Shown here piece by piece: positions 19,817 through 36,165 of a stretch of DNA of 36,165 nucleotides. Origin of the DNA: a virus. The stretch lies in the IMG/VR virus record IMGVR_UViG_3300047462_000078, positions 1-36,165 of that record; one strand, written 5' to 3'. A program made the position numbers and the translations under genes. Positions within the stretch are counted from its first letter, which is position 1, and every line of letters begins with the position of its first letter. The notes under the pieces were generated by a model. The model was not told where the DNA came from. It worked only from the letters and a program-made list of their open reading frames with translations, and searched no databases.

Positions 19817-21277
19817 ATGAGCACATTACCCCTTTCGATTATTGCGGATGTGACTGTAGTCACCAGTTCTCCGCAGGTAGCGGCTCCTAAGTTTAATACA
19901 GGCTTAGTAATCGGTAACTCGACAGTTATTCCTTCCTATGGAGTTAACTCCAGAGTAAGAATCTATCAGTATGGCACGTATTCGTCTTCAATGCTTACTG
20001 ACGGTTTTACTATCAATAGCCCTGAGTATATCTGCGCTCAGATCTATTTCAGTCAGTCTCCTGCTCCTGCCCAGATAGCAATCGGTAGACAAGATGCTAC
20101 GGCCATTTCCGCTTTAACCATTATGTCGGGAGATGCTGGAACAGGCTATGCTGTCGGAGACCGTTTCAGCATTACTCAAGGCGGGGCCAGCTTTGGCATT
20201 GGTCAAGTGACCACTATTGGCACTAATGGCGCAGTCACTGGGGTTTCTATCTATCAGCAGGGGACCAGCTATACTGTAGCTAACGGGCTTACCACAATTG
20301 CTCTTACTGGATCTGGCACAGGTCTAGAGGTTGACGTCACTGCTCTTGGAGAAAGTGCTCTACAAGCCTTCCAAGCTTGCCGATCTGCTAACGCTATCTG
20401 GTATGCTGGAATGGTCACGACCGCGGTTGACGCCGACCACATAGCTATCTCCGCTTGGGTCCTCAGTCAAGCAGGAACAACCTACTTTGGGAATAACTCT
20501 GAAGCGGCTGTCGCAAATGCCGTTGCCGGAAATGTGTTCTCCACACTATTTGGAGCTAACTCCAAGCGGACATGGATGCAGTGGGCAACCACTCAGAGCG
20601 GTTTGTACCCTAATCAGATCTACTTTACTGCGGCTGTTATTGGCCAAGCTATGGCCTCTAATACTCAGCTTTCAAACTCAGCCTTTACTGAGAAGTTTAG
20701 CGGGGGAGTTCCTCTAGTCGGAGTATATGTTGAGCCTACTGGTCCTGGCGGTTTGTCTACTACTCAGATAAGCAACATTGAAGGAACGAGCACGACAGCT
20801 GGTCCTAACGGAAATCTATACCTGAACTACGGAAGCTCTTTCAATGCTATAGAGCAAGGTACTATGATGGCACCTGGGGTGTTCTTTGACCAGATATTGA
20901 ATCTTGATATTTTGGGCTCAAACATCCAGTTCAACATTATGAATCTGCTGACTACTCTTCCTAAGGTTCCCCAGACGGACGGCGGGCAGCAGCTACTGAT
21001 TCAAGCAGTTGAGGCTGCTCTTGCCCAATCAGCATCTACTGGATTCATTGCTTCTGGCATCTGGGAAGGCCAGACTATAAGTCTCGGTGGAAACAATAGT
21101 CTAACTCCTGGAACTTCTCTTCCTAACGGCTACCTTGTGCTATCTCCTAGCTATAGCGTATGGGGTAAAGCCAACCCAGCTCTATTGGCTCTTCGGCAGG
21201 CTCCTCCTATCTACGTGGCGCTCATTGAAGCGGGAGCGGTACACTTTGTTACCGTGGAAGTTCTAGTACAGATTTAG
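19817..21277 (+). CDS. Tail sheath protein, DUF3383 family
   Basis: The 486-residue protein is the contractile sheath subunit, which makes the tail type clear. Supporting segments are SIIADVTVVTSSPQVAAPKF at the start, SPAPAQIAIGRQ, GNVFSTLFGANSKRTWMQWA and MAPGVFFDQILNLDILGSNI, followed by NIMNLLTTLPKVPQTDGG. A Gly-rich beta insert (AGTGYAVGDRFSITQGGASF, GTSYTVANGLT; about residues 110-180) could be exposed on the sheath surface. The start ATG follows AAGGAG. Confidence 0.88.
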   Translation: MSTLPLSIIADVTVVTSSPQVAAPKFNTGLVIGNSTVIPSYGVNSRVRIYQYGTYSSSMLTDGFTINSPEYICAQIYFSQSPAPAQIAIGRQDATAISALTIMSGDAGTGYAVGDRFSITQGGASFGIGQVTTIGTNGAVTGVSIYQQGTSYTVANGLTTIALTGSGTGLEVDVTALGESALQAFQACRSANAIWYAGMVTTAVDADHIAISAWVLSQAGTTYFGNNSEAAVANAVAGNVFSTLFGANSKRTWMQWATTQSGLYPNQIYFTAAVIGQAMASNTQLSNSAFTEKFSGGVPLVGVYVEPTGPGGLSTTQISNIEGTSTTAGPNGNLYLNYGSSFNAIEQGTMMAPGVFFDQILNLDILGSNIQFNIMNLLTTLPKVPQTDGGQQLLIQAVEAALAQSASTGFIASGIWEGQTISLGGNNSLTPGTSLPNGYLVLSPSYSVWGKANPALLALRQAPPIYVALIEAGAVHFVTVEVLVQI

Positions 21278-21281
21278 AAAT

Positions 21282-21380
21282 CATATGCAAATCTTGGACA
21301 TTGAATTAATCATCTAATTTTTGCATATGAATCCTATGAACTCCTAGATATCCCCAAGGTTGACCTGGATTTCTCAAAAT
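21282..21380. repeat. Structured intergenic element, copy 1
   Basis: CATATGCAAA (21282-21291) pairs with TTTGCATATG (21320-21329); inside it, TTGGA pairs with TCTAA. The element is closely related to 35501-35590: both share TGCAAATC, ATTAATCATC, ATTTTTGCA and ATGAATCCTA. In the second copy an A-T pair at the stem is replaced by G-C. A looser second stem-like part follows. It fills the gap between sheath and tube genes. Confidence 0.75.
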
Positions 21381-21414
21381 TATCATTTTAATGCCCGTAG
21401 CGGAAAGGAAATCT

Positions 21415-21858
21415 ATGGCAACTACGTACGCTTTTAAGAGTATCGTCGGGAGCTTTACAGACCCTGATGTAGGAACCTATATTTTTGCAGGTCAAGAGGG
21501 TGTCAAGCACATTACCGTAGGTAACACCATTGATCGCACAGTTCAAGACGTTGCCGCCGACGGTACTGTGATGGTTAGCTATGTTTCTGGTGCTAATGGC
21601 TATGTTGAGATTGAGACTCAGCAAAACAGCAGTCTTCATCAGTTTCTCGTGAATTGGGCAAACTATAAGTTTACTGAGAGTGAGAATGGTGGAGCGGCCC
21701 TGTTTGCTGCTGCTGCCATTAAGATCATCGACACTCTTTCAGGGGCGAATCACACGATTACCGGAGTATCCCCGATGAAGATTCCTGACAAGCCGTACGG
21801 GCCTTCAGGCAGCACAACCACCTGGAGACTGCCGGCAGCAAATCTCGTTCAGCAGTAA
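21415..21858 (+). CDS. Tail tube protein, DUF3277 family
   Basis: I start at ATG 21415 after GGAAAGGAAA rather than 21391. The 147-residue protein follows the sheath and has the tube-family pattern: YAFKSIVGSFTDP, TVGNTIDRTVQDVAADGTVM (about residues 38-57), IETQQNSSLHQFLVNWANYK (about 67-86) and a C-terminal PYGPSGSTTTWRLPAANL. It should polymerise into the inner tube around the tape measure. A structured intergenic element lies just upstream and may set its expression apart from the sheath. Confidence 0.83.
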   Translation: MATTYAFKSIVGSFTDPDVGTYIFAGQEGVKHITVGNTIDRTVQDVAADGTVMVSYVSGANGYVEIETQQNSSLHQFLVNWANYKFTESENGGAALFAAAAIKIIDTLSGANHTITGVSPMKIPDKPYGPSGSTTTWRLPAANLVQQ

Positions 21859-21877
21859 AACTTAAATAGGAGAGAGT

Positions 21878-22243
21878 ATGGACCCCCGAGTTACGACTAA
21901 GGACATAACAATAGATGATAAGTCTTTTAGATTGTCTAAGATGGACGCAAGACTGGCCTGCTGGCTCTTTGCTACTCTTGGTGCAAATGCTAGTTCTAGC
22001 GGTCTTCTTCTATCGACTCTAGGGAGCTGTACTCACGCTCAATTTGATGAGATTCAAGGTCACGCTCTCAGACACGTCATGCTTTTAGATAATAAGGATG
22101 GAAACGTATTTCCTGTTCCTATTCTCTCTGGAGAAGGAAAGTTCGCAGACCCTAGCCTTGGAACAGATGGCAACCTAGTCTTTAGGCTTACCTCAGAGTC
22201 CATCATGTTTAATGTGGCTCCTTTTTTACCCGAACCCAAGTAG
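21878..22243 (+). CDS. Tail assembly chaperone, short form
   Basis: The 121-residue protein between tube and tape measure begins with an acidic/basic N-terminus (KDITIDDKSFRLSKMDARLA). It continues with CWLFATLGANASSSGLLLST, THAQFDEIQGHALRHV and FRLTSESIMFNVAPFLPEPK. This is the gpG-like partner that coats the tape measure during assembly. Seven codons before its stop is the heptamer T TTT TTA in the correct frame, allowing a -1 shift into the next frame. The start ATG follows GGAGAGAG. Confidence 0.72.
   Translation: MDPRVTTKDITIDDKSFRLSKMDARLACWLFATLGANASSSGLLLSTLGSCTHAQFDEIQGHALRHVMLLDNKDGNVFPVPILSGEGKFADPSLGTDGNLVFRLTSESIMFNVAPFLPEPK
22222..22228 (+). promoter_or_regulatory. -1 ribosomal frameshift site T TTT TTA
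   Basis: The heptamer is in the canonical X XXY YYZ register of the chaperone gene (codons CCT TTT TTA). After slippage reading continues without a stop for 11 codons to the ATG at 22261 and then through to 22470. A 7-bp stem TTCCCAA/TTGGGAA (22247-22253 and 22272-22278) lies 18 bases downstream and could stimulate it. Confidence 0.7.
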
Positions 22244-22470
22244 AGATTCCCAATAGGCAAATGGGCTCTGCTTGGGAACCCGCTGAATACCTTAATCTTA
22301 GTGAAATTCTCATGAGACCTGTTGAATCAGGGCTATGGAGACTTCACGAGACTTTTGATGGCACTTACACTGGAGATGACCTTCTCGACATCTTAGAACT
22401 CCTAGACGTTAGAGTAGAGAATAGACTCAGGGCAGAAGAGTATAGAGAGAGGAAAGCTAATGCCGGATAA
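22228..22470 (+). CDS. Tail assembly chaperone, frameshifted extension (GT-like)
   Basis: This frame encodes TRTQVEIPNRQ followed by MGSAWEPAEYLNLSEIL and an acidic, helical end (DLLDILELLDVRVENRLRAE). Read together with residues 1-117 of the gene at 21878 it gives a 197-residue fusion, as in the G-GT pair of lambda. The ATG at 22261 has only a poor ribosome binding site, so the frameshift is the likely way of expression. The stop overlaps the start of the tape measure by 11 bases. Confidence 0.68.
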   Translation, partial: TRTQVEIPNRQMGSAWEPAEYLNLSEILMRPVESGLWRLHETFDGTYTGDDLLDILELLDVRVENRLRAEEYRERKANAG

Positions 22471-24058
22471 TGTATTAGACTCCTATCTCGTTCGCCTGGG
22501 GGCCACGGTTGATACTTCCTCTTTTGTGCGATTTAACGCGGTCTTAAAGGGCTCTGAGAATACGGTAACTTCCTTTACCTCAGGAGCACTTTCTCAGTTT
22601 CTTAAGTTTGAGTTTGCTGCAATCTCAACTCTAACTTCAGTAGGAATTGGTCTTATTGGATTGGCGGATAAGACAGCCATGGCGGACCAGCAGTACCGTC
22701 TGTTTGGCATGAGAATGCTCATGACCAAGGACTCTGCCCGAGCTATGCAGATGGCTCTAGGCCAATTAGATGCCACTCTAGACGAAGTCTCTTACGACAA
22801 AGAGCTCAATCAGAGATTTCAATATCTTTATGAGCAGAACGAGAAGCTCGGAAAAACTCTTGGGCCCAATTTCGATAAAAACATGATTGGGATTAGAGGT
22901 TTAAGAACTGAAGTTAAGTTCTTTGGGGATGAGCTCGAAGTCCTGGCTATGGGCAGTATCTCTAAGCTTTTTGAGAAGTTAGGTTACAGCATAGGAGACT
23001 TGCAGAATAGATTAGATAGGCTCAGCGATGAGTTTATGAAAGACATACCTTACTGGTCTGAGCAGATAAGTTCCAATCTTATTCCTGTTTGGAATGAATT
23101 TAAGCTTGTTCTTTCAGAGTCTTGGGATATTGCTAAATCCTTCATAGGAGACTATACCCTACTAGACGCACTAGTTAGAGGCGATGACTCTGTCCAAAAC
23201 GCACAGTTAAGCTGGACCAACTTTGGGAAATCAATAAAGCAAAGCTTTAACGATGTCTTCGAGATTGTCAATGAGAGTTTAACTGCAATCAAGGCCGTTG
23301 ACCACGCCTTTAAGTCTGCTATCTATTCTGGTATGGCTATGAGAGCTCTGGCTCATGGAAAAACTGATGAGGCTTCTAAGTATCTTAACATGGGGGATAA
23401 GGAAAGCGATAAGATTATCGACTTTCTTTATGGGCAGTATAACACTAAGTTTACTGGAGGGGATTACTCCTGGAGAAATAAAACCAGTTCTTCAGATATG
23501 CCTTCTACAGCATCTGCCCCTGATTCTTTAAAGCCTTACTTAGCCAACCCTCAATTTCAAGCCTTACTCTACGGAGTAGGCATGAGAGAGTCCGGTGGCC
23601 ATCAGTTTGATATCAACGGTCGCCCTACTCAAGGTCCTGCTACAGACAACTTTGGTAATCCTCTTCCTGAGAGAGCCGTTGGTAAGTATCAACTTTTTCC
23701 TTCTTCTGCTAAGAAGTATGGGTTCGATATTAACACAGAAGAAGGAAATACTCTAGCCGCAGCCAGTCTGCTTAGAGATCTTCTTATTAAGCACAAAAAC
23801 AATGATGCGGCGGCATTAGCTGACTATGGTGGATTTAAGAAGGCTGATCCTTCTAGGTACATCGGAGCAGTAAAAAGATTTGCTGGTCAATATAGTCCTT
23901 CTTCCGCAAGTATTAGTATAGGTTCTGTCGTCATTAACGTACCGCACTCAATTCCCCCTCACGAGATGAGTCGCTTTGTTAAGGATTCAATGAGTAACAT
24001 AACAGATAAAGCCATTAAACAAACTACAGCCCAGATGGCAGCAGGAGCGTATTACTAG
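22460..24058 (+). CDS. Tail tape measure protein with a lysozyme-like C-terminal domain
   Basis: At 532 residues this is a short tape measure. The first 300 residues are helical with a hydrophobic stretch (FAAISTLTSVGIGLIGLADK) and a region of repeated helices. About residues 375-480 look like a peptidoglycan-cleaving fold: YGVGMRESGGHQFD (candidate catalytic Glu), RAVGKYQLFPSSAKKYGFDI and ADYGG near the end. Such domains help the tail tube cross the cell wall. The gene overlaps the chaperone and ends by overlapping the GTG of the next. Confidence 0.78.
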   Translation: MPDNVLDSYLVRLGATVDTSSFVRFNAVLKGSENTVTSFTSGALSQFLKFEFAAISTLTSVGIGLIGLADKTAMADQQYRLFGMRMLMTKDSARAMQMALGQLDATLDEVSYDKELNQRFQYLYEQNEKLGKTLGPNFDKNMIGIRGLRTEVKFFGDELEVLAMGSISKLFEKLGYSIGDLQNRLDRLSDEFMKDIPYWSEQISSNLIPVWNEFKLVLSESWDIAKSFIGDYTLLDALVRGDDSVQNAQLSWTNFGKSIKQSFNDVFEIVNESLTAIKAVDHAFKSAIYSGMAMRALAHGKTDEASKYLNMGDKESDKIIDFLYGQYNTKFTGGDYSWRNKTSSSDMPSTASAPDSLKPYLANPQFQALLYGVGMRESGGHQFDINGRPTQGPATDNFGNPLPERAVGKYQLFPSSAKKYGFDINTEEGNTLAAASLLRDLLIKHKNNDAAALADYGGFKKADPSRYIGAVKRFAGQYSPSSASISIGSVVINVPHSIPPHEMSRFVKDSMSNITDKAIKQTTAQMAAGAYY

Positions 24059-24891
24059 TGGCTACTTCAGGCATTTTGTTTCCTGTGATTAGTGAGGTCT
24101 ATGCTAAGTCGTTACCGCGTTATAAAGGCTCTTCTAGTCAGTCTGGAAACTATACAAGTGAATTAACTGGACCCTGGACTCCTCCCCAGTATTCTCAACC
24201 TGCAGTAACTATTCTTACCGTACCTTCTTCAGGTAATCCTGTTTTAGTTCAAGCTCCTATCACAGGGACTGACGGGACCACATCAGCTCCTGTCTACCAG
24301 GGAGGAACTCCAGCATCTGATTATGTTTTTGATGCTATTCTAAGACTCAACCATAAGCGGTCTATAGAAAAGACTAGTCATCCTGTCCTTACAGGAGCTA
24401 ACATTTCAGACCACTTTTACGTTAAGCCTTCTAGAGTAGTCTTAGAGATTGGAATGAGTGACGCAATGTCCTCATTTACAGCAGGAGTTTGGGTAGGAGC
24501 TTCAACAAAGAGCGTATCTGCTTGGCAAATTCTTAAGTCTCTTCAAATCGCAGGAACTCTGTTTACCTTAACAACTCGTCTAGACACGTACTATAACATG
24601 ATGATTATAGACCTAGATACCTCTGATGACCACAAGACACTTCATGGGTTAAGAGCTTCTGTAGTTCTAGAGGAATTACTTTCCGCCGCCGTGGTATCAA
24701 CCGCCGGAGCAAGCTCTAGAGACCAAGCATCTGGGTCTACATCTCTAGGTACTATTCAGGGAACGTCAATTAACTCAACTCAACAGGAACAGAACGTCTT
24801 TCCTTCTAGTCTATACCCAGACGCTCCTACCTATCCTAACGTTCCTGGGGCTGGAGACGTTAGCTCAACCAGTTTAAGCCAAGTCCCTTAA
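24058..24891 (+). CDS. Dit-like baseplate/tail hub protein
   Basis: The 277-residue protein starts at GTG 24058 inside the preceding stop. The middle part, DYVFDAILRLNHKRSIEKTS, DHFYVKPSRVVLEIGMSDAM and LTTRLDTYYNMMIIDLDTSD, is typical of the Dit-like N-terminal domain family in contractile tails. The N- and C-terminal regions are Ser/Thr/Pro-rich and probably flexible. It should form the ring between tube and baseplate. Confidence 0.72.
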   Translation: MATSGILFPVISEVYAKSLPRYKGSSSQSGNYTSELTGPWTPPQYSQPAVTILTVPSSGNPVLVQAPITGTDGTTSAPVYQGGTPASDYVFDAILRLNHKRSIEKTSHPVLTGANISDHFYVKPSRVVLEIGMSDAMSSFTAGVWVGASTKSVSAWQILKSLQIAGTLFTLTTRLDTYYNMMIIDLDTSDDHKTLHGLRASVVLEELLSAAVVSTAGASSRDQASGSTSLGTIQGTSINSTQQEQNVFPSSLYPDAPTYPNVPGAGDVSSTSLSQVP

Positions 24892-24900
24892 GGAGTCAGC

Positions 24901-25326
24901 ATGTCTCTTCAGTTGATTCCCTTGACTAGTTCTCCAAATCAGTCGTTGACTGTTCAGCTTCAGGTAGACGGAAACACTTTAACCCTGAATCTAATTATTA
25001 AGTACGATGATATGGCGGGTTACTGGATAATGTCTATTTCAGACATAAGCAATAACCTTCTCATCGACTCTATTCCAATGATCTGCGGAGCTTACCCTGC
25101 CGCTAACTTACTTCAGCAGCAGAGGTACTTAGCTATAGGCTCTGCTTTCATAGTTAACGTCGGCAATACTTCTTCAGTTGGTGGAGGAAACATTGGGTAC
25201 GGTCAGGGAGGCTACGGTCAGGGCCCCTACGGAGGTCAAGAAGGCCAAGGCGGAGTAGACTACCCCAATCAATTTAACCTTGGTACAACCTTTCAACTGT
25301 GGTGGGGGGATACCCCAAGTGTCTAA
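24901..25326 (+). CDS. Baseplate plug protein (Pam3 gp18-like)
   Basis: The first 90 residues (QLIPLTSSPNQSLTVQLQVD, IIKYDDMAGYWIMSISD, LIDSIPMICGAYPAANLL, YLAIGSAFIVNVG) match the small baseplate plug family known from cyanophage Pam3. The C-terminal 50 residues carry a Gly/Gln/Tyr-rich repeat (GYGQGGYGQGPYGGQEGQGG), unusual for this family. The start ATG follows AAGGAG. It overlaps the next gene. Confidence 0.75.
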   Translation: MSLQLIPLTSSPNQSLTVQLQVDGNTLTLNLIIKYDDMAGYWIMSISDISNNLLIDSIPMICGAYPAANLLQQQRYLAIGSAFIVNVGNTSSVGGGNIGYGQGGYGQGPYGGQEGQGGVDYPNQFNLGTTFQLWWGDTPSV

Positions 25327-26419
25327 TCCTTCAACTACTCCATTCTTTGGAAGAGCCTACTCTCTCGTTGTAACTCCTGCTCAAGGCCCAAGCGCCAAAA
25401 CTCCAATAACTATCTCTGACGACTCCTTTGACCAGTACGCGCTTAGAATAACCTTTGAGATTAATCAACTGGCTTTCTCAGCCTTTTGGTCCGCGGAAAT
25501 AACTGTTTGGAACGCAGACGGCAACATCACAGCTGGACCTTCTAAGGGAGTAAATCTCTATCAGTCTGTAATTCAAGAGGGAAGTACAGTTTCTTTATCT
25601 GCTGGCTACCAAGCGAATGGATTTTCTGGAGTTATCTTTGAGGGTCAGGTTTTCTACACTACTCAAGATAGAGTAAACGCCACTGACAGACGATTAACCT
25701 TTCACTGTCTTTTAAGTAGGGCGCTTACGACTCAAAACTTTCTTAATGCCACTCTTCCCGCAACCTCTACTCAATTTACACAAGCTCAATTTATAGCCTC
25801 TCAGTCTAAGAACCCTATAGCTTTTAATTCTGATCAGTTTAAGACTAACGTAGAGGGCGCTATACCTCAAAGGGGTTCTGTTCAACTTCCGCGAGGTAAG
25901 TCATTCTTTGGAAACCCTCACCACTACTTAAAGTCCTTAGCTGATCAGAATGGTCTATTAAGCTGGTTTGACGGGAAGGGCTGGAATACTGACTCTCTTC
26001 AGAATCCCGCGGGACCCCTGGTGACTACTTACGCCCCTGTTCAAACTATAGGTCAGCCTCCTTCTCTGGTAGGAGATTTGACTTTAAGTTTAATAGGTCA
26101 GCCTCAACAGACTCAGTTTGGAGTAAACTTTAGAGTTCTTTTAGACTCCCGAGTTCAAATTGTGGCCCCTCTTCCTCAGGTCGGTCTACAGACTCAGTAT
26201 ATTCGTCAAGCTTCTATTTCCTATCCTTTGCCGCAAGGACAAGGGCCTCCAAGACCTCTATCTGAGAATGGCCAGTACATCGTTATCGGAGTAAGACTCA
26301 GTGGAGACACTAGAGGAAATGAGTGGTACAGTGAGTTTACTGCTGTTACTCTTATCACAGATGTCATAGCTATGCTAGGACAAAATAAGCAGGCTCTTCC
26401 GATGGGCGGTAATGGCTAA
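25319..26419 (+). CDS. Baseplate hub protein
   Basis: I choose GTG 25319, preceded by GGGGGGAT at good spacing; an ATG at 25280 would lie deep inside the plug gene. The 366-residue protein is beta-rich with FFGRAYSLVVTPAQGP, LRITFEINQLAFSAFWSAEI, YTTQDRVNATDRRLTFHCLL, LPRGKSFFGNPHHYLKSLAD and QYIVIGVRLSGDTRGNEWYS. This agrees with the gp27/gpD-like hubs that hold the spike. The stop overlaps the next ATG. Confidence 0.72.
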   Translation: MSNPSTTPFFGRAYSLVVTPAQGPSAKTPITISDDSFDQYALRITFEINQLAFSAFWSAEITVWNADGNITAGPSKGVNLYQSVIQEGSTVSLSAGYQANGFSGVIFEGQVFYTTQDRVNATDRRLTFHCLLSRALTTQNFLNATLPATSTQFTQAQFIASQSKNPIAFNSDQFKTNVEGAIPQRGSVQLPRGKSFFGNPHHYLKSLADQNGLLSWFDGKGWNTDSLQNPAGPLVTTYAPVQTIGQPPSLVGDLTLSLIGQPQQTQFGVNFRVLLDSRVQIVAPLPQVGLQTQYIRQASISYPLPQGQGPPRPLSENGQYIVIGVRLSGDTRGNEWYSEFTAVTLITDVIAMLGQNKQALPMGGNG

Positions 26420-27138
26420 TGATCTCTATAGCAGAAAGACTTTCTGTAGCTTCTGAGCCAGTTGAAGGAGCTTTGTGGCAGTGGGCCTGCCGCCTGAGAT
26501 CAGCTATACCTGGAATAGTAGTCTCATTTGACCCAGATAAGCAGACCTGTGTAGTTCAACCTGCAATTCAAGAGCTTGTTCTTTTGCCTCCTCCAGCTAC
26601 TCCTCAAAACTCTAACCCGGATTCAACGCAAAACATACCCACTTCAGTTTCTATAGAGCCTCTACAGGATGTGCCCATCATAATGATGAGAGTTCCTGGG
26701 TGGTCTATAACGTTGCCTATAACTGAAGGGGCTGAGTGTCTTCTTATTTTTGCGGATAGCTGTATAGATGGTTGGTGGCAGAACGGAGGAGTAAATGCGC
26801 AGTTTGATAGGCGGAGACATGACCTCTCTGACGCAATGGCCCTGTTTGGGCCTTGGTCGCAGCCTAGTGCTCTTGAGAACTATTCCACTGATTCTCTACA
26901 GATTAGGTCTGATGACCAGTCGGTGGTCGTTGACCTCAGATCCGGAAAAGTAACTATAGCAGCTCCAACTGTTGAGATAAAAGAAGCAGGAGGAACCAGT
27001 CAGCCTTTAGTTACCGCGGACTGGTTAACTTTCTTTAACACCGACATTCTACCTTTTCTTCAGAGTAAAGGCTATACCGGACCTACCGGTCCAACCCCTA
27101 GTTCTTCGTCTTTGACTACTGTACTGGAGGCTCAATAG
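26419..27138 (+). CDS. Baseplate spike protein, Gp138-like
   Basis: The 239-residue protein matches the Gp138 N-terminal domain family: CRLRSAIPGIVVSFDPDKQT (about residues 25-44), CVVQPAIQEL, DVPIIMMRVPGWSITLPITE (about 86-105), GAECLLIFADSCIDGWWQNG and RRRHDLSDAMALFGPWSQP. It forms the OB-fold base of the cell-puncturing spike. A C-terminal beta segment (VVVDLRSGKVTIAAPTVEIK) is the usual needle, and the end is Ser/Thr-rich. Confidence 0.85.
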   Translation: MISIAERLSVASEPVEGALWQWACRLRSAIPGIVVSFDPDKQTCVVQPAIQELVLLPPPATPQNSNPDSTQNIPTSVSIEPLQDVPIIMMRVPGWSITLPITEGAECLLIFADSCIDGWWQNGGVNAQFDRRRHDLSDAMALFGPWSQPSALENYSTDSLQIRSDDQSVVVDLRSGKVTIAAPTVEIKEAGGTSQPLVTADWLTFFNTDILPFLQSKGYTGPTGPTPSSSSLTTVLEAQ

Positions 27139-27542
27139 TGGCTACTATTACAGTTCGTCAACTAAACCCTACGACATGGGAGCCAATGGAAGGGAATGGG
27201 TTAAATAACTTTATATCTGACCTTCAAGCTGTCGCTCAAATAATAGCCACTAGATTAAGACTCTTTCAGGGCGAGTGGTTTCTTAATCTTAGCGATGGAC
27301 TTCCTCTTTTTCAGTCTATGCTAGGCTCTTCTGGGAGTCAAAGAAATCTAGATGTGATAACAAACTTCCTATCTGCTAGGATTCTGGGAACTCCCTACGT
27401 CACTGGAATAGCCTCTTTATTAACCTCGTATGCTGATAGAAAGTTTCAGTTTAGCGCAGTTGTCTCTACTCAGTTTGGTACTGTTTCCATAAACAATTCT
27501 TCCGCGATATCCGCCAGTCTAAGTACTACGACTAGCAGTTAG
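27138..27542 (+). CDS. Baseplate wedge protein (gp25-like)
   Basis: The 134-residue protein starts at GTG 27138 overlapping the previous stop. It carries NFISDLQAVAQIIATRLRLF (about residues 24-43) and GEWFLNLSDGLPLFQSMLGS (about 45-64), followed by DVITNFLSARILGTPYVTGI. The combination GEWF..L..G.P..Q..LG is typical of wedge proteins placed between spike and gpJ in this phage type. It links the wedge to the sheath start. Confidence 0.75.
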   Translation: MATITVRQLNPTTWEPMEGNGLNNFISDLQAVAQIIATRLRLFQGEWFLNLSDGLPLFQSMLGSSGSQRNLDVITNFLSARILGTPYVTGIASLLTSYADRKFQFSAVVSTQFGTVSINNSSAISASLSTTTSS

Positions 27543-27554
27543 GAAAACCACGAC

Positions 27555-28754
27555 ATGGCATATTTTCCACCGGTTATTACTCCGGCCGGGTTATCTGTTC
27601 CGAGTTTTTCTGACATTCAACAGGCTCTGTTAGACGCCTATTCTTCAATCTACGGCTCGACTACTTACCTGGGAAACGACTCAGCTGACTATCAATTTTT
27701 ATCTGCGCTAGCCTTAAAGCTCAGCGACAACTGCGGACTTTGCCAATTAGCTTACAATTCCAGGTCACCACTAACAGCGGTTGGGGCAGATTTAGATGCC
27801 GTCGTCGAATTGGGTGGGTTAACTAGACTTTCTTCTTCTGCTTCTTTTGCGGCTCTCTTGCTGTCTGGAACCCCTGGAAAAGTAATCAACAGCGCAGTCA
27901 TTCAGGATGAGAATGGAATACTCTGGTCACTTCCTTCTGGAGTAACTATAGGCGGTGGCGGCTCCGTTGTCTCCACGGCAACCTGTCAGCAAGCAGGTCC
28001 TATAAGTGCCGAAGCTAATACCATTACAAATCCTGTTGGAGGCTTTACTGCGGGTTGGACAGCGGTTACCAATCCATTAGCCGCCACTCTGGGAACCTCA
28101 GTTGAGGCTGACTCCTCTCTTAGAGCTAGATACGCCATTTCAGTTGCTTTACCATCTAGTACTAGACTTGCAGGAACCACCGCTGAAATTCTGGCAATAC
28201 CTGGAGTTACTCTTACAAATATCCTAGAAAATCAGACAGGCACGACTGACTCTTACGGGAATGAGGGTCACTCTCTTACTTGCGTAGTTCTAGGAGGCTC
28301 TGATCTTGCCGTTGCTACAGCTATCTACAATAATCGTGGAATAGGCTGCAACACTCAAGGAGCAACATCTACGGCCATGACCATAGTCCCCGTGACTGAT
28401 CCTAATACAGGAAACGTTACTAGCATTGGCTTTATCCGGCCGACAGCGGTTCCCGTTTACGTAAGTCTATCGGTTCATGGCCTAAACGCCAGTTTTACGA
28501 CGGCTACTCAGGCTGCTATTATTGCCGCGATAGTTGCTTACCTTAATAGTCTCCAAATTGGAGAAGAAGTTACTCAGTCCGCTCTCTATGGGGCTGCTCT
28601 TTCTGTGATGGCTAACCTATCACAGCCTTATTTTTCTATAAGAGCTCTTACCCTGGGAACCTCCGCTTCTCCCACAGGTACTACTGACATTTCTCTTAAC
28701 TTTTATCAAGTTTCCTCGGGAGTAACTGGAAACGTGATACTGACGGTGGTTTAA
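27555..28754 (+). CDS. Baseplate J-like protein
   Basis: The 399-residue protein belongs to the Baseplate_J family. Its N-terminus has PSFSDIQQALLDAYSSIYGS, then LAYNSRSPLTAVGADLDAVV (about residues 66-85). The middle shows ANTITNPVGGFTAGWTAVTN, ADSSLRARYAISVALPSSTR (about 181-200) and LAGTTAEILAIPGVTLTNIL. These are classic J-family landmarks. The start ATG 27555 lies 12 bp after the preceding stop. Confidence 0.92.
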   Translation: MAYFPPVITPAGLSVPSFSDIQQALLDAYSSIYGSTTYLGNDSADYQFLSALALKLSDNCGLCQLAYNSRSPLTAVGADLDAVVELGGLTRLSSSASFAALLLSGTPGKVINSAVIQDENGILWSLPSGVTIGGGGSVVSTATCQQAGPISAEANTITNPVGGFTAGWTAVTNPLAATLGTSVEADSSLRARYAISVALPSSTRLAGTTAEILAIPGVTLTNILENQTGTTDSYGNEGHSLTCVVLGGSDLAVATAIYNNRGIGCNTQGATSTAMTIVPVTDPNTGNVTSIGFIRPTAVPVYVSLSVHGLNASFTTATQAAIIAAIVAYLNSLQIGEEVTQSALYGAALSVMANLSQPYFSIRALTLGTSASPTGTTDISLNFYQVSSGVTGNVILTVV

Positions 28755-28755
28755 G

Positions 28756-29343
28756 ATGGCTGGACAAGTTCCTACTCAATCTCTTCCAATAGGGTACTAT
28801 CTCAGCCTGTTGACGTCAGAGTATAGAACTGCTCCAATGTTCAATCAGTGGCTATACACTGTCTTGAACATTGCTAGTGACATTTCAAACTGCTTACAGT
28901 TTATTAGTTCTGCCTTTAATCTTAAGTTTGCTAGTGGTGTTCAACTAGACATACTGGGAGACATCGTAGGCGTATCTAGAACTCTTAATTTTCAGCCAAG
29001 CGGCGGGGTTAGCCCAGTGCTAGATGACGCCACCTATAGGATTCTTCTTCAAGCTACTATAGCCAATAACAGGTGGGATGGAACTATAACTAGTTTATAC
29101 CCTATCTGGAAGAGTCTCTTTCCAACCGGAACGATAGTCATCGTAGATAACCAGAACATGACAGCAAATGTCATCCTTACCGGAACTTTCACCTCCATTA
29201 TTCGAGATTTAATAACTAATGGTTTGATTGTTCCAAGACCTCAGGCTGTTCAGTACACCTACGAGTTTGGTACTTTGCCTTACTTTGGGCTTGACCGAGA
29301 AGATGCCTTTATAGCCGGTCTTGACGTAGGGCACTTTAGTTAG
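28756..29343 (+). CDS. Baseplate protein, DUF2612 family
   Basis: The 195-residue protein follows gpJ, in the place of gpI-like proteins. It has YYLSLLTSEYRTAPMFNQWL, GVQLDILGDIVGVSRTLNF (about residues 57-75), LLQATIANNRWDGTITSLYP, IVIVDNQNMTANVILTG and a C-terminal PYFGLDREDAFIAGLDVGHF (about 175-194). This matches DUF2612. It probably anchors the fibre of the next gene to the baseplate. Confidence 0.85.
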   Translation: MAGQVPTQSLPIGYYLSLLTSEYRTAPMFNQWLYTVLNIASDISNCLQFISSAFNLKFASGVQLDILGDIVGVSRTLNFQPSGGVSPVLDDATYRILLQATIANNRWDGTITSLYPIWKSLFPTGTIVIVDNQNMTANVILTGTFTSIIRDLITNGLIVPRPQAVQYTYEFGTLPYFGLDREDAFIAGLDVGHFS

Positions 29344-29351
29344 GAGAATAG

Positions 29352-30305
29352 ATGGCAAGTACTAACTTTCTTCAGTTTAATCCCGGAGCAGTAAACCAAG
29401 AAACTGATTCTCAGTATACCGCCGACTCCTCTAGAAGTGGTGGAGCGGTAACTGGGATTTTTGCCTCTGCTCTTCTTAATAAAGTCTTTTACCAGTCTTC
29501 TACTTTCATTGCAGCTCTAGCAAACACTCTAGCTAATAAAGGCTATAGCACTAGCGATGCTAGCTTAGCAACTCTAGAGAGTGTGCTGTCTAACATCGTA
29601 ACTTTTGCCGATCTAAAGGCCAATCTCTCTACGGTAGCTTTTTCGACTACGCCAAACTTTAACGCCACCGCAACAAACGGCTTTGACTTTACTCTCGCCG
29701 CTAACGTCACCTCCTCTACACTTACAGGGCACCAAGTTGGCCAGACACTAACCTTTGTAGTTGCTCAGGGAGCCACGCCTTATAGCTTTAGCCCTCCTCC
29801 TAACATTAATGGATGGATTCCTGTTCCAGTCACAGCCAATACGGTATTTGTTCAGACCTTCATTGTTAGAGCAGACGGTACCGTCTGGCCCACTGAGAGT
29901 GAAATTGGGCTTTTAGTTTCTGAGGTAGCAGCTTTACAGTTGCAGCTAGCTACTTCCACAGTTGGGGATATCTTGGTGAGCAATGGTACTTCCTATTCTG
30001 GAAGAACTAGAATAGTTGCTGTAGTTCCTAAGTATTTTGGAGTAACGTACCAAAATAATACTCCAGGAAGTATACTGGTTACGATTATTGCAGGAGCAGG
30101 TAGTCCTGGTGGGCAAATGCAGGCTAATGTAGGTCCTCTTTCCCCTAGTATAATTGCAGGGTATCAATCTAGAGTTCCTGCCGCTGATTCTGATCCTTAT
30201 CAGCAGATGTCCATGACTTTTGAAGTTCCTCAAGGTTGGTTCTATAGCGCTACCTCTGGTGGGGGCATGGGGCTCAATGACTGGGTTGAAACTTACTACC
30301 AATAA
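29352..30305 (+). CDS. Tail fibre or fibre-anchoring protein
   Basis: The 317-residue protein has an N-terminus common to baseplate-attached fibres: FLQFNPGAVNQETDSQYTAD, RSGGAVTGIFASALLNKVFY and FIAALANTLANKGYSTSDAS. A beta-rich middle follows, and near 200 a short coiled-coil-like stretch (EIGLLVSEVAALQLQLATST). The C-terminal 90 residues form a small Gly/Pro-rich beta domain. It precedes the long fibre and may be its adaptor. Confidence 0.68.
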   Translation: MASTNFLQFNPGAVNQETDSQYTADSSRSGGAVTGIFASALLNKVFYQSSTFIAALANTLANKGYSTSDASLATLESVLSNIVTFADLKANLSTVAFSTTPNFNATATNGFDFTLAANVTSSTLTGHQVGQTLTFVVAQGATPYSFSPPPNINGWIPVPVTANTVFVQTFIVRADGTVWPTESEIGLLVSEVAALQLQLATSTVGDILVSNGTSYSGRTRIVAVVPKYFGVTYQNNTPGSILVTIIAGAGSPGGQMQANVGPLSPSIIAGYQSRVPAADSDPYQQMSMTFEVPQGWFYSATSGGGMGLNDWVETYYQ

Positions 30306-30317
30306 TTAGGAGAACGA

Positions 30318-33300
30318 ATGAAAAAGTACCTACTCTTCATAGCTCTTTTCTTTAGCCTAAAGGCTAGTGCTCAGTACACCCCTACTCCTAATATTGGACT
30401 TCAGATTCCAGCCAACGGGTCTAATAACTGGAATGTTCCTCTTAACTTTAACTTTAACCTCCTTGACCAGTTACTGGGTGGAACAGCATACATTCCTGCA
30501 CTTAAGATTACCAATAACCTTACTGTGGGAGGCACTGTTACAGCTGGAGGCTTTGTTGGTGCGGGTGGCACAGGATTTGCTCTAACTCCAGGGGCAACTC
30601 AGTATAGCGCTTCTTTCTTTTCTGCTTCAGGAACAGCTTCTACAGTCTCAGGAATCCTACTTAATGGAATTTCTGTCTTTAGTCCCAGTACTCCTCCAAG
30701 AGCTGCTATTAGCTCAGATATTACCAATCTCTTTGGGACACTTACTACGGGCTGCTATCTAAGTGGGGCAGGAACCTGTACCGTGCCTAGCTCTTACACT
30801 CCACCAACCGGGACAGGATTCGTTCACGTCACTGGCGGGGCGCAAGACAGCGCAGCGCGAGCTCTGGTGAGCGCGGACATACCAAACAACGCGGCAAACA
30901 CCAGCGGTACTGCGGCGAGTTTGAGTGCGGCAAGCGCGTTGCCCAACGGCACGACAGCGACGACGCAGGCACCGGGCGACAACACAACGAACGTGGCAAC
31001 AGATGCGTTTGTGCTGGCGAATGCGGGGGCAACGCCCTGCACATCCACAATGGGTGCGGGGCAGTACAACAACTCAGGGGCCTTTGGCTGCACAGCTCCA
31101 GTGACTGTGATCAGCTACTCACAGCTTCTCGCGGCCATTGCGGCGGCTGGGTCTAACCCTACGACGATTCAGATTCCGGTGGGGATTACTCTGGCGGCGA
31201 ACCTGAGCATCCCGGCGAACGTGGTGCCTTTGTTCCAGTCGGGCGGCGAGATTCTGGGTGCGTACACGCTGACGTTCAACGGGAGCAATCCTATTGCTTC
31301 GGCATCGCAGAAGATCTTCGGTTCAACGTTGACTGTGGTGGGGCTAACGCTGCGAGACGTTCCGGCGCAGTGGTTTGGGGATGTTCCAGACGGCACTACG
31401 GACAACACGGCTGCGTTGCAAGCTTGCTTGGCATCACTCTCCTCTGGGGCGTTATGCCAAGTGCCTCTCGGCTGGAGCAACACATCAACAGTGCTGAACA
31501 TCGTGAACAATGGGACGGGCTTCGATGGGGTCAATAACTTCCTTTGGTATCCCGGGTATCCCGTTCCATCGGCGATTCGATCAACTTCTACGAGCGCCAT
31601 CATCGTTCACGCCTCTGGAATCACGAATCCGGTGGTGAGGAATGTGACGCTGACGCGCTCCGTGGCCGGTGGAAGTGGTTCGTTTGGGTTGGACTTCGAC
31701 AGTTCGCTCAACCTTACCGACGAGAACGTGGGCGCGTATGAGAGTAACTACAACTTCCGCTTTGGTCCTTCCTCAGGAAGCTCCAAGGTGGGAGTTGACC
31801 ACCTGTTTTGCGGGCAGACACTCAGTGGCCCAAACTCGGCAAACGACTACTGCTTGTACTTCGATTCGCAAACGGGTGGTGGATCAAGTTCGCTTTGGGT
31901 GGATGATGTGTACGGCTACGCGGCGAACGGCGTGAATCACTCGGGCACGCAGATCGCCGATGTTCACCTAAAGCACGCAGAGTTTAGCTCCCCTGGCATT
32001 GGCGTGCTGATTGATTGTGCGACAGGCGGGACGTGCGGTGACGCTCAAGACATCGACTACGAAGACATTGTCATCGACAGCTACGGCACGTATGGGTACA
32101 AAATTACGAACGTACCGAGCGGAATAGGAACAGGTGCGGGCGGGATTCACATTGATGGAGGATGGGTTGCCGGAGACGCCACAGCAAACGTGTGCGGCCT
32201 TTACACGAACAACGTGCAGGGATTGCAAGCGAACCTGCCGTACATGGCGACGAACCAGGCAGCCAACGTCTGCACGACCGCAACGACGAACTCAAGCATC
32301 AAATGGTATGACGCGCTACACGTTACAAACGCGTTCAGCGTGAACTCCACGACGAACAGCACGTTTGATATGACGCTGGCGAACAACACTGGAGCACCGA
32401 TGACGCTGGGCAATGTTGCCAACAGCAGCACGGGAAACGTGTTCAAGGGAGTGGCAGGGCCAAACTTCAATTTCGCAACGTTCGACAGCGGCTCGCTGGC
32501 AAACACATGGGAGGTTGCGAACGTTCAGCCGAACGTGTTTCTGACCGGAGCTGGCGGATTCATGATGCTCCCGGCAAACACCGCCATAGGTGGTGTTCAG
32601 GTGTGTTCGGCCAGCAATGGCTACTGCCCCACAGGGCTCTCCGGCATGACGGCAGGACGCGTTCCCATTGCCACGACTGCCACGACTGCCACGACCTCCA
32701 AGGCCATCGCTGGCAGTGGGGCTGGGTTGACCAGTGGCCCGACAACCACCACGGCCAATGACTGTGCCAAGTTTGCGGATGCGGCAGGAACGTTGGCGGA
32801 TGCGGGAAGTCCTTGCGGCAGTGGCAGCAGCTTCAACCCGGCATCTCCAGGGCCCATCGGTGGCACGACTCCAGGGGCAGGAACGTTTACCACGCTAAAC
32901 GCACAGGGCGACACTTCCTCAACTCCGTCGCTGTTTGACTACGTGACCAGCACAAACGCAGCAGGAACGATAACCTCTCCAGCCTCGCATCAGCTCAGCA
33001 CCGCTGGTATCGCAGCGGGATATGCTTGCTCGATCATCCGCACCTTCATCTCCGGTTCTGTCTACAACGGCTTCGCGACCTGCAACAACAAGGACTCTGG
33101 GTACGCCATCAGCCAACTTTATACGAGCAATAACCACGCGCTCGGTTCGGAAGCATGGGTGCTCGCTATGAACGCCTCTCCCTCGACTACTCAATACACT
33201 GGAGCAGTGACGGCTCCGAGCTTCAACGGAGTATCCCTCACGAACACAGGGGACGGCACGCAATCTCTCTACAACGACGGAAACTACAAACCGACACCGG

Positions 33301-33668
33301 CTGTGGTATCAACAACTACGTTCACTGGAGCGACAGGGCCGCAGACAGGCAGCCCGTTTACGATTGCCAGTGCGGGGCTGTATGAACTGGAGTTCGGATG
33401 TCGCGTGACAACGCCATCGACCACAGGTACGGCTCTACAGTTTTACTGGAACATGACAACCCCTAGTGTTTCAGAGACCAACACACAGGTGGGAAACATT
33501 CAGATGGGACAGGGAGCAGGTCAGTGCTCGAACAACAGCTCTTACCCGTCCGTCATCAGCGTACTGTTCGCGGCGGGAGACCAAGTGTACTGCAAGTCAA
33601 TCAACCAATCGACAGCGACGACCGATGGCGTTTACAGCGCCACATGCAAAATCGTCAAGCTGCCCTAA
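30318..33668 (+). CDS. Long tail fibre/spike with signal-peptide-like start and beta-helix domain
   Basis: The 1116-residue protein begins with MKKYLLFIALFFSLKASAQ, a textbook signal peptide with an AQ cleavage site, then NIGLQIPANGSNNWNVPLN, like secreted host proteins. Around residue 350 AQWFGDVPDGTTDNTAALQA is the entry motif of pectate-lyase-like beta helices, consistent with polysaccharide binding or cleavage. Near 785 lies a run ATTATTATTSK. The last 130 residues (TFTGATGPQTGSPFTIASAG and on) look like a C1q/TNF-type trimeric head. From about codon 170 the DNA becomes much GC-richer, so the gene is a mosaic. Confidence 0.78.
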   Translation: MKKYLLFIALFFSLKASAQYTPTPNIGLQIPANGSNNWNVPLNFNFNLLDQLLGGTAYIPALKITNNLTVGGTVTAGGFVGAGGTGFALTPGATQYSASFFSASGTASTVSGILLNGISVFSPSTPPRAAISSDITNLFGTLTTGCYLSGAGTCTVPSSYTPPTGTGFVHVTGGAQDSAARALVSADIPNNAANTSGTAASLSAASALPNGTTATTQAPGDNTTNVATDAFVLANAGATPCTSTMGAGQYNNSGAFGCTAPVTVISYSQLLAAIAAAGSNPTTIQIPVGITLAANLSIPANVVPLFQSGGEILGAYTLTFNGSNPIASASQKIFGSTLTVVGLTLRDVPAQWFGDVPDGTTDNTAALQACLASLSSGALCQVPLGWSNTSTVLNIVNNGTGFDGVNNFLWYPGYPVPSAIRSTSTSAIIVHASGITNPVVRNVTLTRSVAGGSGSFGLDFDSSLNLTDENVGAYESNYNFRFGPSSGSSKVGVDHLFCGQTLSGPNSANDYCLYFDSQTGGGSSSLWVDDVYGYAANGVNHSGTQIADVHLKHAEFSSPGIGVLIDCATGGTCGDAQDIDYEDIVIDSYGTYGYKITNVPSGIGTGAGGIHIDGGWVAGDATANVCGLYTNNVQGLQANLPYMATNQAANVCTTATTNSSIKWYDALHVTNAFSVNSTTNSTFDMTLANNTGAPMTLGNVANSSTGNVFKGVAGPNFNFATFDSGSLANTWEVANVQPNVFLTGAGGFMMLPANTAIGGVQVCSASNGYCPTGLSGMTAGRVPIATTATTATTSKAIAGSGAGLTSGPTTTTANDCAKFADAAGTLADAGSPCGSGSSFNPASPGPIGGTTPGAGTFTTLNAQGDTSSTPSLFDYVTSTNAAGTITSPASHQLSTAGIAAGYACSIIRTFISGSVYNGFATCNNKDSGYAISQLYTSNNHALGSEAWVLAMNASPSTTQYTGAVTAPSFNGVSLTNTGDGTQSLYNDGNYKPTPAVVSTTTFTGATGPQTGSPFTIASAGLYELEFGCRVTTPSTTGTALQFYWNMTTPSVSETNTQVGNIQMGQGAGQCSNNSSYPSVISVLFAAGDQVYCKSINQSTATTDGVYSATCKIVKLP

Positions 33669-33740
33669 CAACCGCACCCGCGAGGCGGAGAGTGGGGAAG
33701 GAACACGAAGCCCTAGTGCAGTAATAGCAAGCCGGAGACG

Positions 33741-34091
33741 GTGGGCATAATAAGAAATCGGGGTATCAAGGTGGAGAGAGAGCAGGTGCAAGACATGATT
33801 AGCGCAGCGGTAGCAGCGGCACTTGTTCCAATTCAGCGGAATCAAGCAGAGTTGCGGGAACGCCTCATTGGCATTGATGGAAACGGAACTGGCCGCATTG
33901 GGGTCTTGCAAAAGCAGGATGAGAAGATGCAGGCAATGGATGTGAAACTGGACATGCTCGTAAATCGGTCACAGAGCTGGAACAAAAAGAACGTATGGGC
34001 TCTCGCAAAATGGGTCGCAGGCGGCATCTGTGGATTAGCCTTGATGTTGCTATCGCATTGGCTCGATCATCACTACGGAGGAACACCCTAA
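33741..34091 (+). CDS. Coiled-coil membrane protein (XhlA/holin-accessory-like)
   Basis: The 116-residue protein has an N-terminal amphipathic helix (VQDMISAAVAAALVPIQRNQ), the segment GIDGNGTGRIGVLQKQ, a short coiled coil (DEKMQAMDVKLDMLVNRSQ) and one membrane span (WVAGGICGLALMLLSHWL) near the C-terminus. This is the layout of XhlA-type proteins near lysis genes. The GTG at 33741 is the longest start; GTG 33771 is an alternative. The gene shares the high GC of the fibre end and probably came with it. Confidence 0.6.
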   Translation: MGIIRNRGIKVEREQVQDMISAAVAAALVPIQRNQAELRERLIGIDGNGTGRIGVLQKQDEKMQAMDVKLDMLVNRSQSWNKKNVWALAKWVAGGICGLALMLLSHWLDHHYGGTP

Positions 34092-34092
34092 A

Positions 34093-34581
34093 ATGCCTTC
34101 ACCTAAACAACTTACTTGGCTTAAGTCCCTGGTCCCAGCCGCCCAGGCAACAGAACAAGTCTTTAAGGTCCCTGCCTCAGTAACCCTAGCCCAGTGTATT
34201 CTAGAGTCTGGTTGGGGTACTACTCAGCTATCTAGAGACTGCAACAACTACTTTGGGATCAAAGCAGAACACTTAGATGACCCGTCTACCTATCAAGAGT
34301 TTCCAACTAGCGAGTACATTCATGGGGTTGAGACTCTAGTCAAAGCCGACTTCGAAAAGTACCCAGATGTTGAAGCCAGCTTTAGAGATCACGCTAGACT
34401 CTTAGCTATGGCTTCTCGATATGCTCCTGCTATGGCAGTCTCTGGAGATGCCTTTGCTTTTTGTAATAAGCTTCAGTCTTGCGGGTATTCGACTTCTCCC
34501 ACCTATGGGGCGACGCTGGACTCTTTAATAGAAGAACTAGACCTTACTCAGTACGACGGAGGAGCAAATGACGGCAGCTAA
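34093..34581 (+). CDS. Endolysin, GH73-type N-acetylglucosaminidase
   Basis: The 162-residue protein matches phage/FlgJ-type glucosaminidases. It has VTLAQCILESGWGTTQLSRD (about residues 30-49) with the candidate catalytic Glu in LESGWG, then NNYFGIKAEH, YIHGVETLVKADFEKYPDVE and a helix ending in LAMASRYA. No signal peptide or membrane span is present, so release needs a holin or another export step. The start is 1 base after the preceding stop, and the end overlaps the next gene by 14 bases. Confidence 0.83.
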   Translation: MPSPKQLTWLKSLVPAAQATEQVFKVPASVTLAQCILESGWGTTQLSRDCNNYFGIKAEHLDDPSTYQEFPTSEYIHGVETLVKADFEKYPDVEASFRDHARLLAMASRYAPAMAVSGDAFAFCNKLQSCGYSTSPTYGATLDSLIEELDLTQYDGGANDGS

Positions 34582-34888
34582 AATTTGGGGATGGCTTATG
34601 TATGTCCCTGCTAAAGTTTCTGGATACCTATGTGAGTATCCTACGGTCTCCAATTTCCTTCTGCTTTTCTGGAACGCGTTTAGCACCAGTTGGGCGACGG
34701 GCATTAAAGCTCCAATCAATTTTGATGGTCTGAACTTCAACATTGATGCTAGAGTTTGGATGACTAACCTACAGTATCACACCCACCTCCCGACTTGGAC
34801 GGTGGCTGTGCTTACTTTACTACTTAACGGCCTTGTAGCCTATGGAAATTGGCGCAAGACCCATCCCGCTAACAAGGAGTCAAAATGA
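34568..34888 (+). CDS. Holin-candidate membrane protein
   Basis: The 106-residue protein has hydrophobic segments at about residues 25-45 (VSNFLLLFWNAFSTSWATGI) and 76-94 (TWTVAVLTLLLNGLVAYGNW), with a short basic C-terminal tail (RKTHPANKESK). Together with its place between endolysin and lipoprotein, this makes it the best holin candidate. The first segment is only moderately hydrophobic, so the topology is uncertain. It overlaps both neighbours by a few bases. Confidence 0.5.
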   Translation: MTAAKIWGWLMYVPAKVSGYLCEYPTVSNFLLLFWNAFSTSWATGIKAPINFDGLNFNIDARVWMTNLQYHTHLPTWTVAVLTLLLNGLVAYGNWRKTHPANKESK

Positions 34889-35238
34889 AGAAGGCTATAT
34901 TTCTTTGCTTATTCTCGGCCACTCTACTTATAGGCTGCACTAACTTTGACAGAGACACGTTCAATACGCTGTCTGCTTCAAATGCTGTGCTTAAGACAGC
35001 TCAGGCTGATTACGAGTCGGGCAAGATTCCTCACAACTCTTGCGATTTTAAGATTATCACCGATGCAAAAGTAGTTCAGCTAACGGCTGAGACAGCCTTT
35101 CTCGACTACTATCAGATTGAGCAAGCTAAGGGAAATACCACAGCCACTCAAGCGGTGGTAGTAACAGATCTTACCGCTCTTGTGCCTGTGATTGCTCAGG
35201 TAAAGTCTCTCTACTCTAACCCGAATTGCGGAGCTTAA
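34885..35238 (+). CDS. Lipoprotein (possible outer-membrane spanin component)
   Basis: The 117-residue protein has a lipoprotein signal: MKKAIFLCLFSATLLIGC, with lipobox LIGC and Cys18. The mature part is helical (FNTLSASNAVLKTAQADYES), with further helices to the end and two Cys (NSCDF, NPNCGA). A lipoprotein beside endolysin and holin suggests an o-spanin-like function in disrupting the outer membrane, which would imply a Gram-negative-type host. It is larger than many o-spanins and no clear inner-membrane partner is identified. The ATG overlaps the preceding stop. Confidence 0.6.
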   Translation: MKKAIFLCLFSATLLIGCTNFDRDTFNTLSASNAVLKTAQADYESGKIPHNSCDFKIITDAKVVQLTAETAFLDYYQIEQAKGNTTATQAVVVTDLTALVPVIAQVKSLYSNPNCGA

Positions 35239-35239
35239 C

Positions 35240-35494
35240 ATGACTGTGTCTGAAGTTCAAGGAATTGTGACTGATGTTGAATCTTTAGGTGCTCAGATTC
35301 TAAGTGTTCTGGAGGCTCTAGACCCCGCAGTTGATGTTCCTGCTGTTGAGGCAGGAACTCTGCTTAAGCTGTTTGGTGATATGGTTACTTCCGCTCTATC
35401 TGGAATCAGCGCAGCTCAGTCAGTTGTTATAAGTGACGCTTCAATAGCGACACTTGCCCCTGACCCCACTCCTCTTACTCCTCCAACATCTTAG
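35240..35494 (+). CDS. Hypothetical protein, last gene of the late operon
   Basis: The 84-residue protein starts 1 base after the lipoprotein stop. It is acidic and helical (VTDVESLGAQILSVLEAL, LKLFGDMVTSALSGISAAQS) and ends in a Pro/Thr-rich tail (PDPTPLTPPTS). The amphipathic helices could lie on a membrane surface. No family is recognised. The structured repeat element begins 7 bases after the stop. Confidence 0.55.
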   Translation: MTVSEVQGIVTDVESLGAQILSVLEALDPAVDVPAVEAGTLLKLFGDMVTSALSGISAAQSVVISDASIATLAPDPTPLTPPTS

Positions 35495-35500
35495 ATATAG

Positions 35501-35590
35501 TGTGCAAATCCTGGATATTAGATTAATCATCCAATTTTTGCACATGAATCCTAGGATACCTCAAGTTTCTCTAGGATTGACTCAAATCAA
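35501..35590. repeat. Structured intergenic element, copy 2
   Basis: TGTGCAAA (35501-35508) pairs with TTTGCACA (35537-35544); inside it TGGAT pairs with ATCCA. A second stem, ATCCTAG with CTAGGAT (about 35548-35577), follows. The element repeats the sequence at 21282-21380 with paired changes that keep the stems. Confidence 0.75.
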
Positions 35591-35617: not shown

Positions 35618-35655
35618 GCCCTCACCCTACTTAAATGTAGGGTGAGGGCATTTGT
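35618..35655. terminator. Strong terminator between convergent genes
   Basis: A perfect 13-bp stem, GCCCTCACCCTAC with GTAGGGTGAGGGC, has loop TTAAAT and is followed by ATTTGTAGTTT. It lies between the end of the rightward late operon and the end of the leftward MazG-like gene. It may serve both directions, although the T run is better rightward. Confidence 0.85.
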
Positions 35656-35671: not shown

Positions 35672-36091
35672 TTAAGCAGCGGCTAGCTCGTGATTCATCT
35701 CCAGCTGAGTACTTTCCTCAGGATCAAAGAGAATTGTCTGAAGATCTGGAGCAATATAGTCTGGACCCTTCGGTGTCTTGGTTCCATACTTCTCTCCACT
35801 TTCAGCTTTGCCGCTTGTTTTTGTCATGTTACTGCGATGAACCTCTGAGAATACTCTCTCAATAGGTATGCCGTAGGAAATAGCAGTACCAAGCGCTACG
35901 TAGATAAGATCCGCAATGCCATCTGCAATCTCGATAAGATTATCCTCATCTATGGCAGTATTAAGCTCTTTGAGTTCCTCAGTCATCAAATCTTTTCTTA
36001 GATTTTTGACCCGTTGAGGAATGTTGATTGTAGGCTTTTCTGAGACGAGGTGGCCGTACTTGTTATGAAACTCCAAGACTGAGTCTTCCAT
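35672..36091 (-). CDS. MazG-like nucleotide pyrophosphohydrolase
   Basis: The 139-residue protein carries the MazG/PRA-PH pattern: [20 protein letters not shown] (about residues 29-48; the EExxE-type metal site), then [20 protein letters not shown] with the second acidic pair, and EVHRSNMTK (about 84-92). [11 protein letters not shown] segment follows. Such enzymes hydrolyse non-standard or excess nucleoside triphosphates, or lower alarmone levels. I choose ATG 36091, preceded by AAGGA; a longer frame to 36148 and beyond lacks a signal. It is leftward, opposite to the late operon. Confidence 0.82.
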
Positions 36092-36165
36092 ATACTTCCT
36101 TTCGGTTAGAGGCCATGATAGCCTTGAGTTGGCGGATTCCTTTTCCATGAGCCAAGTATGCCTCA

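Follow-up and report, generated by a model that had tools for sequence, protein, structure and literature searches.

A covarying palindromic hairpin with helically phased boxes forms a dispersed intergenic element family in a clade of uncultivated myophages

What links two similar palindromes lying some 14 kb apart in the late region of an uncultivated tailed phage, and do they act as RNA? In the window analyzed here (the whole 36,165-nt stretch, a fragment of an IMG/VR virus record), one copy separates the tail sheath gene (19817–21277, + strand; phrog_205, 5e-59) from the following gene, a probable tail tube by position (21415–21858, +; phrog_280, a PHROG virion structural protein). The other stands at the end of the late operon, behind its last gene (35240–35494, +), which has no assigned function; these neighbors confirm the locations given in a preliminary description. 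Copy 1 consists of a CATATGCA-N32-TGCATATG hairpin or palindrome, designated HP1 (21282–21329, +), followed by a second module, D2, of phased CCTAT/CCTAG/CCAAG/CCTGG boxes (21330–21368, +). Copy 2 has a AGTGTGCA-N32-TGCACATG HP1 (35499–35546, +) and a D2 of degenerate phased boxes (35547–35585, +) that is retained without a following gene on the + strand. Both hairpins are supported by covariation and by a covariance model (CM), which scores 74.3 bits for copy 1 (21282–21368) and 71.3 bits for copy 2 (35499–35585). A 46-kb record of the same phage (IMGVR_UViG_3300049216_000064) contains both window copies and a third at 9132–9217.

The two HP1 sequences with their flanks are identical at 39 of 48 positions, the next-best 48-mer of the window reaching 34 of 48, which bears out the claim that they share sequence; the two nested stems that had been described exist as well. 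The compensatory changes that had been named, A-T to G-C (pair 4/45) and G.U to G-C (15/34), are present, as are A-U to G.U exchanges at 2/47 and, within the loop, at 23/26; however, only favorable changes had been listed, and one gained pair (C.A to T-A) and two lost ones (C-G to A.G and T-A to C.A) had been omitted. Because these stand beside the compensatory changes, the covariation evidence from the two copies alone is weak, and the pair does not prove a structure.

The search for further copies in the phage and its relatives that had been proposed revealed an undescribed family of intergenic elements in one clade of uncultivated myophages. Relatives were found via the sheath and tube proteins and via pattern scans, and a CM built from 25 copies was searched in 20 clade contigs from IMG/VR, 18 of which together contain 36 copies, about 30 of them non-redundant once near-duplicates are dropped. 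E-values extend down to 1e-17, and no CM match was found in 835 kb around the tube genes of more distant phages (best E = 0.98). Two weak matches (G003:38140 and G007:67628, 24–25 bits) appear to lie within conserved coding sequence and were excluded from the count. An exact TGCA-N32-TGCA look-alike at 11803 in the window was judged coincidental; it lies inside an open reading frame (11502–11936) whose encoded protein is conserved, and the same spacing occurs in the G005 orthologue. No Rfam family matched the window at gathering thresholds or four relatives at E ≤ 1. Neither a close cultured relative by DNA nor a cultured phage with a sheath, capsid, or Pam3-gp34-like protein of >60% identity was found, and prophage relatives of the tube protein were only 37–47% identical, all without the element; two early proteins of these phages carry Pam3-type Pfam domains.

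HP1 is a hairpin-forming palindrome of fixed length in which pairing has been conserved while the sequence drifts. Its form is TGCA-N32-TGCA, 40 nt in all; the tip (TGGATGA...TCAT) is conserved, and the middle of the arms varies. Exact 40-nt pattern scans could bias the claim of fixed length, but a variable-gap scan (among the matches listed) and the CM, both of which permit other lengths, gave only 40 nt, and 42 nt in one phage (G014). In all three G014 copies the length is 42 nt and the right box reads CGCA; in two of them the left box is TGCG, which compensates at a pair that is otherwise near-invariant. A CGCA right box also occurs in two copies at a primase site (in G001, which is the window phage, and in G004). 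Stem energies are strong in many copies (to -33 kcal/mol) and weak in others (e.g., G005b, G001c, and G004c), with the primase-site copies of G001 and G004 barely folding, and the 40-nt length persists in poorly pairing copies.

Covariance statistics, another of the checks that had been suggested, gave a clear result. Across 26 copies, the covariation score is 0.265 against 0.170 ± 0.017 in shuffles, none of 500 shuffles being as high; 72.5% of cells are paired (66.0 ± 1.3 in shuffles), 66 are double-changed (43 in shuffles), and pairing falls to 29–46% when the partner column is slid. The middle arms form 139 Watson-Crick pairs with their own partners and 102 with swapped ones, and HP1 energy is lower for own arms than for chimeras on either strand (z = -6, P = 0.0003). 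Against dinucleotide shuffles, the mean HP1 z is -4.1, with 84% of copies below -2. A.C mismatches are depleted (P = 0.003) and G.U pairs are not (difference P = 0.04–0.08), and between the close contigs L109 and L030 the sense-strand HP1 changes are G.U/Watson-Crick exchanges or double changes. The shuffles leave the relatedness of the copies in place, and the same covariation pattern can be produced when template switching homogenizes the arms of an inverted repeat, as is known to happen (PMC8604942; PMC7202029). A strand preference by free energy was rejected, the mRNA strand being the lower in 22 of 28 copies on raw values and in 16 of 28 (P = 0.57) after composition correction.

D2 is of a different nature. 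Downstream of HP1, CCWGG-like boxes recur at about 7.5, 18, 28.5, and 39 nt, 80 being seen where 20 are expected, and the best period of 10.5–10.75 nt (resultant 0.82, null mean 0.21) is that of the DNA helical repeat. Because the copies are related by descent, this period is a shared, retained trait rather than many independent events. Folding revealed no structural signal (mean z -0.9; own versus swapped halves, P ≥ 0.3), leaving a stem in D2 unsupported, and W.W mismatches are frequent in boxes 2 and 3. End-of-operon copies keep D2 with no gene behind it, which argues against a role in translation initiation.

The element recurs at conserved genome sites across phages. The sheath/tube gap is filled in eight phages (the window phage G001, G002, G004, G005, G011, G012, G014, and G020) and empty in six, including G003, G007, and G009. 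A site before the baseplate hub gene is filled in 11 related contigs and unoccupied in the window, where the genes abut (25280–25350, +). The site at the late operon's end is occupied in the window phage, G004, G005, and G014, where the element is followed after 49–75 nt by a strong terminator and a MazG gene in convergent orientation. In the window, this separate intrinsic terminator (35618–35649, +) lies 75 nt downstream of the copy 2 HP1 and is followed by the convergent MazG-like nucleotide pyrophosphohydrolase (35672–36148, - strand; phrog_671, 4e-31); the order of element then terminator is the same in three relatives. G003 lacks the element there, and an unrelated-looking long hairpin with GTACGTGT/ACACGTAC arms (L015, about 17960–18020) precedes its terminator; this may be a diverged or substitute element. 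Beside a primase-like 496-aa gene, copies occur in seven phages (G001, G003, G004, G005, G007, G008, assigned via near-identity to G007, and G014), all antisense to that gene and its operon, and further copies occupy three other sites (m, d, and y). Late-operon copies are all sense, as are the two d-site copies, and every late-side copy is intergenic. On the genome, late-side and primase-site copies point the same way regardless of the direction of transcription, and the two d-site copies, beyond the primase gene, point the opposite way.

RNA processing, stability control, and protein binding, the roles first put forward, are all possible for such an element. Termination at HP1 is unlikely: the hairpin lacks a U-tract, and behind the 35.5-kb copy stands a strong terminator distinct from it. 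The reading that we tentatively prefer, at a probability of roughly 40%, is that of a dispersed, two-part, cis-acting intergenic element that would act on the late transcript. A factor of the phage or its host would recognize the element and act on the late transcript, during its synthesis or once it is complete. Most likely, the element would serve to process the RNA or to control elongation where it separates genes of the long late operon, with HP1 serving as a structural signal and D2 as a sequence-specific contact. Pointing this way are the covariation, the own-arm folding, and the HP1 z against dinucleotide shuffles, together with the sense orientation of late copies, their location in gaps, the stronger depletion of A.C than of G.U, and the L109/L030 exchanges; the shared 42-nt length and CGCA box in G014 are what co-evolution of the copies with a genome-specific trans factor would be expected to produce. 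Against it count the antisense primase-site copies of seven phages, including the poorly folding ones of G001 and G004, the resemblance of the 10.5-nt period and palindromic D2 boxes to B-DNA recognition, the fixed length of poorly pairing copies, and the loss of the strand energy bias after composition correction. The preliminary description had held that changes that keep pairing point to function as RNA. That view is partly supported: the covariation is indeed significant, but the conclusion goes too far because DNA-level constraint or template-switch homogenization would also be expected to give complementary arms, and because of the antisense copies and a D2 that is a phased box array, not a structure.

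The closest rival, a DNA-binding site, ranks slightly below an RNA-acting one; we hold it to be possible though doubtful. Here, a phage protein would bind the TGCA boxes, 36 bp apart, and the CCWGG array on one face of the DNA, for transcription control, replication, condensation, or segregation. Such a nucleoprotein site would account for the helical phasing and excess of boxes, for a D2 in which W.W mismatches are common in boxes 2 and 3 and own halves fold no better than swapped ones, for a 40-nt spacing that is fixed even where pairing is weak, and for a polarity that late-side and primase-site copies share whichever way transcription runs and that is reversed in the two d-site copies. That polarity is largely confounded with transcription, however. 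Sequence sharing within a genome would also be expected, yet the G004 copies differ widely while each is self-complementary, and A.C and G.U should be equally depleted. A replication origin at the primase site, with polarity set by replichores, was considered and is unsupported, the GC skew having no inflection there.

Less probable is an intergenic cassette that moves or recombines and has little function of its own, its copies arriving and disappearing between genes and its arms kept complementary by template switching. Occupancy of the sheath/tube site requires two to three changes on the tree, and relatives have a copy at the hub site that the window lacks. Near-duplicates occur within genomes (over the 30-nt core, 100% in G006, 83% between the two window copies, and 73% in L198), and the changes that separate the near-identical phages L190 and L193 are clustered, a double G-C/A-T change among them. 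Diverged phages nevertheless use the same few sites, length is fixed, and D2 is conserved; neither a transposase nor a target duplication nor defined ends were found, and copies from one genome do not resemble each other significantly more than copies from the same site in different genomes do (P = 0.25), so that within-genome homogenization is a trend only. Although short hairpins are common in AT-rich gaps, a reading as chance repeats or simple terminators is refuted by the CM E-values, the empty 835 kb of distant relatives, the significant covariation, the lack of a U-tract, and the presence of a separate terminator.

What is new is a structurally conserved non-coding family common to a clade of uncultivated tailed phages, and its orthologous filled and empty sites offer a natural set of variants for studying how a phage partitions or marks its long late transcript. 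The family also serves as a warning against taking compensatory changes in a palindrome as necessarily a sign of RNA. It is rather unlikely, but conceivable, that the family represents a new class of phage cis-element, in which a structure-recognized hairpin of fixed length and free sequence, with helically phased boxes, would be read by a phage-encoded factor and mark fixed points of the genome (the late operon, its end, and the primase site).

Other repeats were seen in these genomes. A second dispersed palindrome, GTTGTACACAA(C), occurs nine times in the window (0.5 expected), eight of them in the first 6.1 kb (643, 1675, 2527, 2924, 3057, 3127, 3458, and 6018), with longer repeats around it at 618–662/5993–6037 and 3053–3079/3446–3472; related sites occur in G001, G004, G005, G006, and G014, and the palindromes may be a family of early promoters or operators. 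At 2023–2048 and 2160–2185 of the window, 137 nt apart, lie two 26-nt near-palindromes, CTAAGTTATTTGTTATCAATAACTTA, that are near-identical. G005 has a low-complexity run of TTGCAGC-type repeats (L176, 4341–4620), and G004 (IMGVR_UViG_3300036781_000230) has two diverged terminase/portal regions near its two ends (L018, 3760–12559; L021, 11736–19895), suggestive of an assembly that mixes strains or of a true duplication.

Several known systems resemble the element in part. Phage RNase III sites of the T7 type are long intergenic hairpins that divide polycistronic transcripts, and the predicted stem of about 20 bp in the intergenic hairpin described here would suit RNase III, but many copies pair weakly, and a conserved downstream box array is not known to be a feature of such sites. 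T4-type PeSL cassettes are likewise intergenic, contain a stem-loop, and are present or absent between related phages; they carry an early promoter and a terminator, neither of which was found within the element. By the intrinsic-terminator criterion of a GC-rich stem followed by a T-run, the terminator listed is 35618–35649 and not HP1, and neither copy has a sigma-70-type consensus promoter (18 such consensus matches in the region, 16.7 expected). Since the tested defining features of terminators, promoters, put, and ESAS are lacking, the element is not filed under any of these. The put RNA of HK022, about 70 nt with two stem-loops, acts in cis in antitermination and has two copies, both near early promoters (PMC9378689); the element resembles it as a short phage cis-element with a long hairpin predicted in the transcript, but its second module has no supported stem (mean z -0.9, P ≥ 0.3), in place of the two conserved stem-loops of the put type, and its copies are found inside the late operon and at its end. 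The extended start-associated sequences (ESAS) of cluster K mycobacteriophages each comprise a pair of imperfect 17-nt repeats, separated by a spacer of variable length, close to the 13-nt SAS (GGGATAGGAGCCC) (PMC12699233); by reading, this motif is absent from the copies described here. ESAS resemble the element as dispersed inverted repeats in gaps near start codons, several per genome and absent or altered in some relatives (PMC12699233), but the element of these myophages has a fixed overall length, free but covarying arms, and a phased CCWGG module after them, and some of its copies stand without a following gene.
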